DNA of 64,000 nt from an uncultured Ectothiorhodospiraceae bacterium (lineage in GTDB: Bacteria; Pseudomonadota; Gammaproteobacteria; XJ16; Halofilaceae): positions 62,001 through 126,000 of the forward strand of contig CAJXKK010000003.1 of assembly GCA_913055615.1 (NCBI GenBank). Reading direction: 5' to 3'. Each line of letters begins with the position of its first letter. The first letter of the stretch is position 1. The notes under the pieces were generated by a model. It saw only the letters and a program-made list of their open reading frames with translations, was not told the origin of the DNA and did no database searches. The position numbers were made by a program, and so were the translations under genes. Positions 7,243 through 63,929 of this stretch are shown piece after piece.

Positions 7243-7560
7243 GAACCACGAATGAACACGAATGCTGCCGCGCGAGGTGCATGGCTCGCGGGAGCTATGC
7301 TGGAAGGTGGCCGCAACGCAACGGTTGGGAAAGAACCACAGATGAACACAGATGGACACAGATAAAGTCAAAGGCGGTGAATGGGTAACCGTGATCGCGT
7401 GATCTCACCCCATCACGGATTTTGACCTTATCTGTGTTCATCTGTGTCTATCTGTGGTTCAAACGGGATCCCGTTCACCGACTACGCTTCAGCGAAGCTC
7501 CCGCGAGCCATGCACCTCGCGCGGCAGCCATTCGTGTCCATTCGTGTTCATTCGTGGTTC
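7243..7560. repeat. Outer GAACCACGAAT-type inverted repeat of a nested pair
   Basis: The left arm (7243-7296) begins GAACCACGAATGAACACGAA and continues into a unique block ending GGGAGCT. The right arm (7496-7560) is its reverse complement over the whole length, including the unique block, but carries one extra 11-base unit (GGACACGAATG class). About 54 paired bases with an 11-base insertion therefore enclose roughly 200 bases, which themselves contain a second element of different flavour (7333-7460). It fills the 394-base gap between metF and ahcY. No open frame with coding character lies inside. Confidence 0.85.
7333..7460. repeat. Inner GAACCACAGAT-type inverted repeat nested in the outer element
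   Basis: The left arm (7333-7372) consists of three units: GAACCACAGAT, GAACACAGAT and GGACACAGAT, then AAAGTCAAAG. The right arm (7420-7460) is its near-complement, with the middle units changed to AGACACAGAT and GAACACAGAT. A spacer of 47 bases separates the arms. The unit length is 10-11 bases. The inner end of the left arm, AGTCAAAGGCGG followed by TGAATGGG, recurs in the second repeat family at 63747. Confidence 0.85.
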
Positions 7561-7606: not shown

Positions 7607-9025
<1,419 letters not shown>

Positions 9026-9047
9026 CGTGAGTGTGTCTCCGTATTGC

Positions 9048-9130
9048 GACGAGCGCCGTTGGTACGTGGGCCGGTACCCGAGCCTGGCGGTCCGCGCGGG
9101 GCGGAGGCCGTTGCAGCGCTCCTCGGGTCC
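9048..9130 (-). promoter_or_regulatory. SAH riboswitch in the ahcY leader
   Basis: On the minus strand the leader carries ACCCGAGGAGCGCTGCAACG (9127-9108), then a variable hairpin, then CCAGGCTCGGGT (9087-9076), then GGCGCTCG (9057-9050). ACCCGAG pairs with CTCGGGT to form P1, and GAGCGC pairs with GCGCTC to give the pseudoknot. These conserved blocks and their spacing match the S-adenosylhomocysteine riboswitch class known upstream of ahcY and metH in proteobacteria. The Shine-Dalgarno of ahcY follows within about 30 bases. By knowledge of the class, SAH binding turns expression on. Confidence 0.93.
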
Positions 9131-23647: not shown

Positions 23648-23959
23648 GAACCACAGATGGACACAGATGAACACGGATCAGGGTGGTCGCCGCCAAAGCG
23701 CCAGGGAGTTGCGCTGACACCTGCTTCGAGTGGTGAGGTGCCGTAGATGAACCACAAAATCGATACAAGATGAACACAAAATAGGGCTTATGGCCCATTC
23801 CGTGGTGGGCGCAATCTCTGCGCCATTTTGTGTCTATCCTGTGTTCATTTTGTGGTTCAACAGTCCGAGGCTGCGGTGATGCGCCAGCGGGACGGCGGAC
23901 CCCACCAACGCAAACTCGCACCGACCCAATCTGTGTTCATCTGTGTCCATCAGTGGTTC
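23648..23959. repeat. Outer GAACCACAGAT-type inverted repeat of a nested pair
   Basis: The left arm (23648-23678) reads as units GAACCACAGAT, GGACACAGAT, GAACACGGAT. The right arm (23928-23959) is its approximate complement, with CAGTGGTTC at the edge where one base differs from the usual CTGTGGTTC. About 250 bases lie between, including a second element built from CACAAAAT units. The right arm overlaps the last codons and the stop of hemE. The 308-base gap between the upstream gene and hemE holds nothing else I can see. Confidence 0.82.
23749..23858. repeat. Inner GAACCACAAAAT-type inverted repeat
   Basis: The left arm (23749-23782) reads GAACCACAAAAT, CGATACAAGAT, GAACACAAAAT. The right arm (23824-23858) is its approximate complement. 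The spacer holds a smaller hairpin, GGCGCA-atctc-TGCGCC (near 23808-23824). This third flavour keeps the GAACCAC edge and the 10-11 base period of the other elements but has a different core word. Confidence 0.8.
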
Positions 23960-39699: not shown

Positions 39700-39896
39700 G
39701 AACCACAGATGGACACAGATGAACACAGATAATGGCCTTGTAGGCCTGTTCTGGCCTCCGGGTAGTGAGTCTCGGCAGCGCAAGACGCGACCGGGTTGTT
39801 ATTCCGGGATCGAATCCGTGCGCTGGCCGATCCGCTGAAAGGCGCTTCAGCGCCCCAGGCCCACCATCTGCGTTTTTCTGTGTCCATCTGTGGTTC
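39700..39896. repeat. GAACCACAGAT-type inverted repeat between ftsY and ftsE
   Basis: The left arm (39700-39731) reads GAACCACAGAT, GGACACAGAT, GAACACAGAT, then AATGG. The right arm (39866-39896) is its complement with two degenerate units. The 134 bases between show no second element, unlike the nested cases. It occupies nearly the whole 231-base gap between the two cell-division genes, which are otherwise in operon order. Confidence 0.83.
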
Positions 39897-54193: not shown

Positions 54194-54534
54194 AAGAGAA
54201 CCACGAATGAACACGAATGGACACGAATGGTTCCCTTGGCCAGGAAAGCGCGTCGGAGCTTCGCTGGAACCGGTCGGGGCAGGTCGGTAAAGGGCAAGAA
54301 CCACAGATGGACACAGATAAAAACAAAAAGGACCAAAGGGCGTCGCGCAGCTGACGTATGCGCCGCGTCCGGATGATTGGCTGAAGAGTCGGTTTTTCTA
54401 TCTGTGTTCATCTGTGTCTATGTGTGGTTCAAATAGCAACGCATCGACGGCAACGTAAGACTCTCCGCGAAGCTCCAGACAATTCTCCACGCCCCAGGGA
54501 AATATTCGTGTCCATTCGTGTCCATTCGTGTTCA
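54181..54534. repeat. Outer CACGAAT-type repeat enclosing an inner CACAGAT-type element
   Basis: The left outer arm (54181-54230) holds GAACCACGAAT, a second GAACCACGAAT after AAAAGA, then GAACACGAAT and GGACACGAAT. The right outer arm (54504-54534) is complementary to the last three units but has lost the GTGGTTC edge. Inside, GAACCACAGAT plus GGACACAGAT (54298-54318) pair with the complement at 54398-54430. The single gap of 438 bases between coaD and ggt holds only these two nested elements. Confidence 0.82.
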
Positions 54535-54631
54535 TAGCTCGGCGCATCCCTGCGCCTCGCCCCTTCGGGGCTGGCGCGAAAATCCGCTCCCGGCGGATTT
54601 TTGGTGCTTCCAGTCTCTCGGCTCGTCAGTC

Positions 54632-57110: not shown

Positions 57111-57177
57111 TGTGCCTCTTCAGGCGGGGTTCTCTCCCTCGCCAAGACATCGCGTAAGCCAGCGAACAAATAAAATG

Positions 57178-57301
57178 CAGCTCTCGCAGAGGCGCTGAGA
57201 GCGCAGAGAAACAGGAATAAGAAGGACGTGTGGCCTGCTGCTTGCTCAAAAGTGAGCGCTATTCCTTGTCTTTCTCCACGCTCTTCGCGCCTCTGCGAGA
57301 G
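57178..57301. repeat. CTCTCGCAGAG-type inverted repeat (second family)
   Basis: The left arm (57178-57218) reads GCAGCTCTCGCAGAGGCGCT, then GAGAGCGCAGAGAAA and AGGAATA. The right arm (57261-57301) is its complement with a few mismatches, followed by TTCGCCTTTGACTTTC. Units of about nine bases (CTCGCAGAG, GCGCTGAGA, GCGCAGAGA) take the place of the 10-11 base units of the other family. It occupies the middle of the 304-base gap between the DUF1566 gene and mutM, where I see nothing else. Confidence 0.82.
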
Positions 57302-57414
57302 TTCGCCTTTGACTTTCCTTCGCCTGCCGGCGAGCACCCCTCAGTACACATTGCCCGCATGTGCGGGGTCAGATCGGGTCAGGCACGTTGATGTCCGTTC
57401 ACCGGGGTTACCGC

Positions 57415-63744: not shown

Positions 63745-63929
63745 GAAGTCAAAGGCGGCCTCTCGCTGAGCCGCAGAGAACGCGGAGAAAGGCGATGAAT
63801 GGGGTGGCAAGGCGCCACCACGAATCCTTGGACGCAGCGGCTTCGACACCTGCCCTCACCTCGAGAGGGTTTTACCTTCTTTACTCTCGGCGCTCTCCAC
63901 GGCTCTGCGAGAGGCCGCCTTTGACTTTC
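63745..63929. repeat. CTCTCGC-type inverted repeat (second family), near-complete copy
   Basis: The left arm (63745-63792) reads GAAGTCAAAGGCGGCCTCTC, then GCTGAGCCGCAGAGAACGCG and GAGAAAGG. The right arm (63875-63929) is its complement with several mismatches, ending GCCGCCTTTGACTTTC. The first 12 bases after GA, AGTCAAAGGCGG, are identical to the inner part of the CACAGAT element at 7366, and AAAGGCGATGAATGGG further in resembles AAAGGCGGTGAATGGG there. The 294 bases from 63707 to the window end hold no gene that I can see. Confidence 0.82.

Follow-up and report, generated by a model that had tools for sequence, protein, structure and literature searches.

A shared 12-base block as a putative arm-edge module of nested intergenic palindromes that look like gene-less descendants of GxxExxY elements

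Two families of intergenic repeats, one built of CACAGAT and the other of CTCTCGC units, share a 12-base block, AGTCAAAGGCGG, within a 64-kb window (the whole stretch of 64,000 nucleotides analyzed here), raising the question of what such a block is and why unlike repeats should carry it. A preliminary description had placed it at 7366-7377 and 63747-63758, and indeed it is found exactly at both positions on the plus strand; the complement reported at the right edge of the second element (63914-63929) is borne out by an exact minus-strand copy at 63915-63926, and the variant reported at 57304-57317 corresponds to a minus-strand copy with one mismatch, AGTCAAAGGCGA, at 57303-57314. Three exact 12-mers in 64 kb compare with ∼0.01 expected from the base count; when up to two mismatches are allowed the window alone holds 4 copies vs 4.3 expected, which is not significant.

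The window contains six palindromic elements, all with inverted arms in which the heptamer CRCNRA(G/A/T) recurs about three times at a spacing of 8-10 nt, some of the arms retaining two intact units only. Element 1 is a double palindrome of T-type arms, with an outer left arm of CACGAAT units in a 10-nt period (7243-7264, plus strand), an inner left arm of three CACAGAT units (7333-7363, plus), the block at the inner edge of that arm, the block's partner TTTTGACCTT (reverse complement AAGGTCAAAA; 7420-7429, minus) at the opposite inner edge, an inner right arm of CACAGAT units (7430-7460, minus) and an outer right arm of CACGAAT units (7529-7560, minus). Elements 2 (23648-23959) and 3 (39700-39896) have CACAGAT arms, in the former case around a CACAAAAT-type inner palindrome, and both have CACGAAT arms at the orthologous site. 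In element 4 (54198-54530) CACGAAT arms surround CACAGAT arms. Element 5 (57137-57335) consists of CTCTCGCAGAG arms (57181-57206 and 57276-57301) in a CTCGCCAAG shell that is decayed here and intact in a congener, from which its shell order is seen to be reversed; the one-mismatch block copy lies between an inner arm and the decayed shell. Element 6 (63746-63929), finally, is of G-type, with CTCTCGC...CGCAGAG arms at 63760-63788 and 63885-63913 and an exact block at both its outer left and outer right edges.

Beyond the window, the 3.0-Mb genome contains 15 copies of the 11-mer AGTCAAAGGCG, as compared with 3 occurrences of a reversed control, and inspection of the contexts established that all 15 copies adjoin an arm of an iterated palindrome. 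In an 864-kb sample AGTCAAAGGC lies near arms in 7 of 8 cases (0.25 expected) and a sister word, AGTCAAAATC, in 7 of 7 (0.22 expected). The (A/G)TGAATGGG word said to follow the block is present at both named sites; as a recurring common word it is rejected, since GTGAATGGG and GATGAATGG are near arms too seldom (2/12 and 2/5, respectively, in the same sample). In a congener of ∼85% DNA identity the block of element 1 is kept at the orthologous site as AAAGTCAAAGACG, with TTTTGACCTTATCTGTG opposite, and the arms and the partner TTTTGACCTT are likewise conserved while the spacers have diverged. A search of named genomes, a set that possibly does not include the window's own, for the block joined to CTCTCGC gave 11 scattered matches in unrelated taxa that resemble chance.

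A census of elements in 800 kb of genome stretches plus the window (864 kb in total), supplemented by genome-wide pattern counts, yielded 41 paired elements, many of which are shells, with one element nested at the center of another: CACGAAT arms around CACAGAT arms, CTCGCAGAG around CTCGCCAAG, the reverse order as well, and in one case a triple nesting. The block is found inside CACAGAT arms and outside, between or inside CTCTCGC arms. More specifically, the block or its sister AAAGTCAAAATCGG occupies the inner end of CACAGAT arms and both the outer and inner ends of CTCTCGC arms, and one or the other stands at the borders between shells and between arm and core. The word GTCAAA, of which there are 148 in the 864 kb (∼0.002 predicted per flank), is at the inner edge of 7/31 CACAGAT arms in the own-genome census and at the outer edge of 9/34 CTCGCAGAG-type and 9/32 CTCGCCAAG-type arms, two types that overlap in these counts because the census used regular expressions and some arms fall under both the CGCAGAG and the CGCCAAG types. 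Given the shells, the block or AAAGTCAAAATCGG at their borders and the enrichment at edges, the earlier suggestion that the families are mosaics of common parts was right, with the amendment that the CACAGAT and CTCTCGC "families" share a single arm architecture, of which each represents a subtype. On this reading the block would be a module marking arm edges throughout a superfamily of palindromic elements, and it is the nesting that would explain how unlike repeat families come to share edge modules.

Arms of this architecture, with a heptamer unit CRCNRA(G/A/T), a period of 8-9, 9-10 or 10 and usually three units each, also bracket genes of the GxxExxY family (PF13366/TIGR04256), assigned by this match to the PD-(D/E)XK nuclease superfamily and with no other Pfam match. 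None lies within the window, and both genes of its own genome are located elsewhere: one (L024) has CACAGAT arms (T-type) and the other (L021) CTCTCGCCAAG arms (G-type), the two arm types thus corresponding to those of the window's two repeat families, and L023, in a congener, has CACGAAT arms. The PF13366 match includes the conserved D ... E-x-K residues, with D-x-K replacing E-x-K in L024 in an alignment of nine proteins; a single-sequence structure model was poor (pLDDT 40) and a sequence search returned no solved structural relative. All 10 GxxExxY genes in 20 relatives are bracketed by arms on inspection, one of them being cut by a contig end, as are all 30 fully flanked loci in Gammaproteobacteria, where the median arm score is 23 vs 9 in shifted windows; the latter served as control, since a comparison across loci is uninformative when similar arms make the loci match one another. 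Chains of at least three heptamers are present in 22/30 upstream and 27/30 downstream flanks vs 12/360 control windows. Of 20 loci collected later, most have arms as well, in some cases on one side only or truncated by the end of a contig; the degenerate paralogues L213 and L214 lack them. Arms also accompany GxxExxY in two Bacteroidota records (Bacteroides and Bernardetia).

The gene itself occurs in 45 of 274 gammaproteobacterial genomes, or about one in six. One query gave no match among 50,697 phage records and 6 among 72,556 plasmid records, viral contigs held one relative (L166), and nothing meaningful was matched in a defence-system library. Our literature search, with subscription journals and preprints outside its scope, found neither a paper on GxxExxY function nor one containing the arm sequences searched, and a description elsewhere is possible.

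The type of arm follows the clade of the protein. Protein distance correlates with arm unit (Mantel r 0.45), a value that none of 2000 permutations reached, and across a 33-protein tree the last letter of the heptamer changes only twice, the fewest changes that three states allow, vs at least 6 times in shuffles. When 16 proteins from loci fetched later are included the resulting 49-protein tree requires 3 changes vs at least 12 in shuffles and unites all 33 G-type proteins in one clade with 91/95 support, while the deep branches on the T/A side are weakly supported. The added loci were labeled from their arms before tree building, though not blind to the proteins, and four loci were left out, three (L210, L213, L214) with untypable arms and one (L212) with a broken frame. 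Inner letters of the heptamer track the tree less closely (7 and 8 changes), and it is the arm heptamer and not the block that tracks the protein. Such a match could reflect co-inheritance of gene and arms instead of recognition. If the arms are the substrate of the protein, the clade to which a GxxExxY protein belongs foretells which last letter and which unit spacing its target arms should have.

Genomes that bear GxxExxY also contain scattered gene-less palindromes whose arms are of the same kind. The window's own genome and congener G002, both with a T-type GxxExxY, have 113 and 140 three-unit T-type arms, respectively; congener G001, in which the GxxExxY genes found are of A- and G-type only, has 0. 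Over 274 genomes, GxxExxY is present in 8 of the 13 with T-type arms vs 37 of the 261 others (p 2e-4). In the remaining 5 of the 13 no GxxExxY was found, and three of these (G084, G127, G142) carry 19-24 arms each. Similarly, CTCGCCAAG arms, in which the dinucleotide before the third unit varies between genomes, occur in 6 of 21 genomes tested, 5 of the 6 with a GxxExxY gene or relic of the same arm type; the sixth, G112, has a single such arm and its matching gene was not seen. Loss of the gene or another driver is needed to account for the arms in G084, G127, G142 and G112. Another genome, G086, distinct from that of the window, displays a series of internal deletions leading from GxxExxY to gene-less elements (L217, L218, L221, L223, L224) as well as one gene relic nested in T-type arms. 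Elements can also be present or absent at a given site: between fabD and fabG a GxxExxY element is found in Sphingomonas parapaucimobilis and a short gap only in S. paeninsulae, and presence and absence occur within the genus at one site (L063:6374). No target-site duplication could be defined, the relatives with empty sites being too diverged at the junctions for a comparison at the level of single bases.

Because the window palindromes have the same arms, because arm type matches protein clade, because both types of gene are present in their own genome, and because decay and nesting are seen in another genome, it is most likely that they derive from GxxExxY elements and are nested and non-autonomous. 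We are rather confident of this derivation. Taken as a whole, the explanation that we favor, as probable although by no means certain, is that the block is an arm-edge module, that complete elements carry GxxExxY and, more tentatively, that the protein drives their spread. The shared block would then be a scar left by a G-type element that had inserted into a T-type hairpin, or else an edge common to both enzymes; in the stretches read of the own genome CACAGAT arms were not found to contain a CTCTCGC arm, and the scar reading of the copy at 7366 therefore draws on analogy with G086. As to mechanism, the GxxExxY protein might recognize its own arms as DNA, in the form of a duplex or of an extruded hairpin, and cut at or near the center of the palindrome, with repair then copying an element into the cut; copying of this kind would allow gene-less copies to spread in trans and shells to build up. 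This nuclease-driven mobility step is a tentative proposal, about which we have somewhat more doubt than conviction.

An unlikely, if serious, alternative is that selection maintains the arms because a host protein binds them or because they form a DNA-structure motif such as a bidirectional terminator or a cruciform, that GxxExxY merely settles there and that the block is part of the site. Such selection would fit the better conservation of arms and block than of spacers at orthologous sites and the A-runs and T-runs, reminiscent of terminators, in which several elements end. It would also fit the fact that both arms can switch together, as at elements 2 and 3 and the GxxExxY loci L024/L023, where CACAGAT on both sides in one congener corresponds to CACGAAT in the other; the paired switch could arise if an element were replaced at the same site or if both arms were converted. 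However, a host site does not lead one to expect that the arm letter tracks the GxxExxY tree across families and phyla, that congener G001 is devoid of T-type arms or that gene relics lie inside gene-less elements.

It is quite improbable that the arms act in RNA, as in the intervening sequences (IVS) of 23S rRNA, with pairing in the transcript and cleavage by RNase III. In its favor, the S23p genes of IVS have the same kind of arms (PMC4990558), the Coxiella burnetii IVS having GACAGAT heptamers and 28-bp terminal inverted repeats (PMC4990558), and several GxxExxY genes do lie between co-oriented genes. Yet arm mismatches have no preference for G-U on the sense strand (41 vs 37 for GxxExxY, 38 vs 40 for S23p) and element 5 lies between convergent reading frames; lacking a wobble bias, RNA-level pairing is unsupported. 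The likeness to IVS with S23p/IVP (PF05635) nonetheless extends to a small, functionally uncharacterized gene enclosed by inverted arms of iterated heptamers, and 17 of the 23 S23p genes tested have an arm score of at least 15 vs 2 of 92 controls. The differences are that the protein here is the nuclease-like GxxExxY in place of S23p, that heptamers are spaced by 8-10 nt in place of contiguous 7-mers, that the elements are intergenic and not in 23S rRNA, and that there is no sign of selection on RNA pairing. No rRNA match was found in the window and no PF05635 match in its own genome. By analogy, the S23p parallel suggests a wider class of elements, with kinship unproven. Among the S23p genes examined (L036-L038, L135-L161) the contiguous heptamers of the inverted arms include GGGAGTA, GTTCTGA and GGGCCAA.

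Very improbable, too, is a reading of the palindromes as REP/REPIN sequences that are mobilized by a RAYT, a Y1 transposase, with the block as part of a REP end. In common with REP/REPIN-RAYT systems (Y1_Tnp, PF01797) there are dispersed intergenic palindromes that also flank an associated single-copy gene, the own genome encodes Y1_Tnp (5 matches), and some element cores include REP hairpins of the GTAG type. However, the repeats that closely flank Y1_Tnp genes on two sides are GTAG REPs (L231, L233, L235, L236), iterated arms near Y1_Tnp are one-sided only (L231, L234), no Y1_Tnp gene was found flanked on both sides by these arms, and the arms lack a GTAG head, are made of iterated heptamers and match the clade of the gene they flank, GxxExxY. 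With Y1_Tnp genes accompanied by different repeats, RAYT/REP as the driver is unsupported, and the genus has separate RAYT/REP pairs. The GTAG REP families at the four two-sided loci are GTAGGAGCG, GTAGGCCGG and GTAGGCGCG.

Least credible of all is coincidence, with A-rich edges converging on AAAGTCAAA in the absence of a common origin or role: arm-edge sequence does vary (AAAGGCG, AAAATCGG, AAAACCGG and AAGGTCAAAA) and so might be a loose A-rich edge, but the adjacency of every genomic copy to an arm, the ∼30-fold enrichment near arms and the conservation at the orthologous site all speak against it.

Returning to GxxExxY elements as the likely source, the gene-less copies resemble the MITEs of DDE insertion sequences in being short and non-autonomous, with terminal inverted repeats and internal deletion of a gene-bearing parent. 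They differ in that the parent encodes PF13366 and no transposase and in nesting as concentric shells. Iterated heptamers, many of them intergenic, have been described elsewhere, as GGGAATC in Xanthomonas with ∼70 inverted pairs (PMC4692102) and as TAACTGA in Beggiatoaceae (PMC4679880); these heptamers are contiguous, closer to S23p-type than to GxxExxY-type arms, and a carrier gene is not known to have been proposed for them. One can speculate, and we do so with less assurance than for any other part of the favored explanation, that GxxExxY is the mobility enzyme of a class of elements without transposase, that it reads the arms and targets palindrome centers to generate shells and MITE-like swarms, that S23p/IVS is a parallel branch, and that a single type of origin underlies many otherwise unexplained heptamer repeats and nested palindromes of bacteria. 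GxxExxY (TIGR04256) is named by motif alone, and if the arms are its substrate the family gains a testable activity, and intergenic palindromes of CACAGAT, CACGAAT, CGCAAAG, CGCCAAG and similar units gain a likely parent. The block would thus mark the arm edges of palindromes that seem to descend, with loss of the gene, from a little-studied and apparently mobile GxxExxY element, and a widespread sort of bacterial repeat would have a probable source.

Several further observations concern the surroundings of these elements. In three bacterial families GxxExxY genes or relics (L018, L021, L022, L220) are situated just upstream of a gene starting MLxMxDNYDSFT, which we take to be TrpG/PabA-like. 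An SAH riboswitch (RF01057) is present on the minus strand at 9044-9130 of the window, and the minus-strand reading frame ending at 7607 is presumably its adenosylhomocysteinase gene. A further palindrome, GCTCGGCGC...GCGCCTCGCCCC...GGGGCTGGCGCGAAG, is also dispersed and either breaks up CACGAAT arms or lies next to them (L057:3179-3664 and ∼54530-54577 of the window), and there are 84 copies of GCTCGGCGC in the 864 kb.
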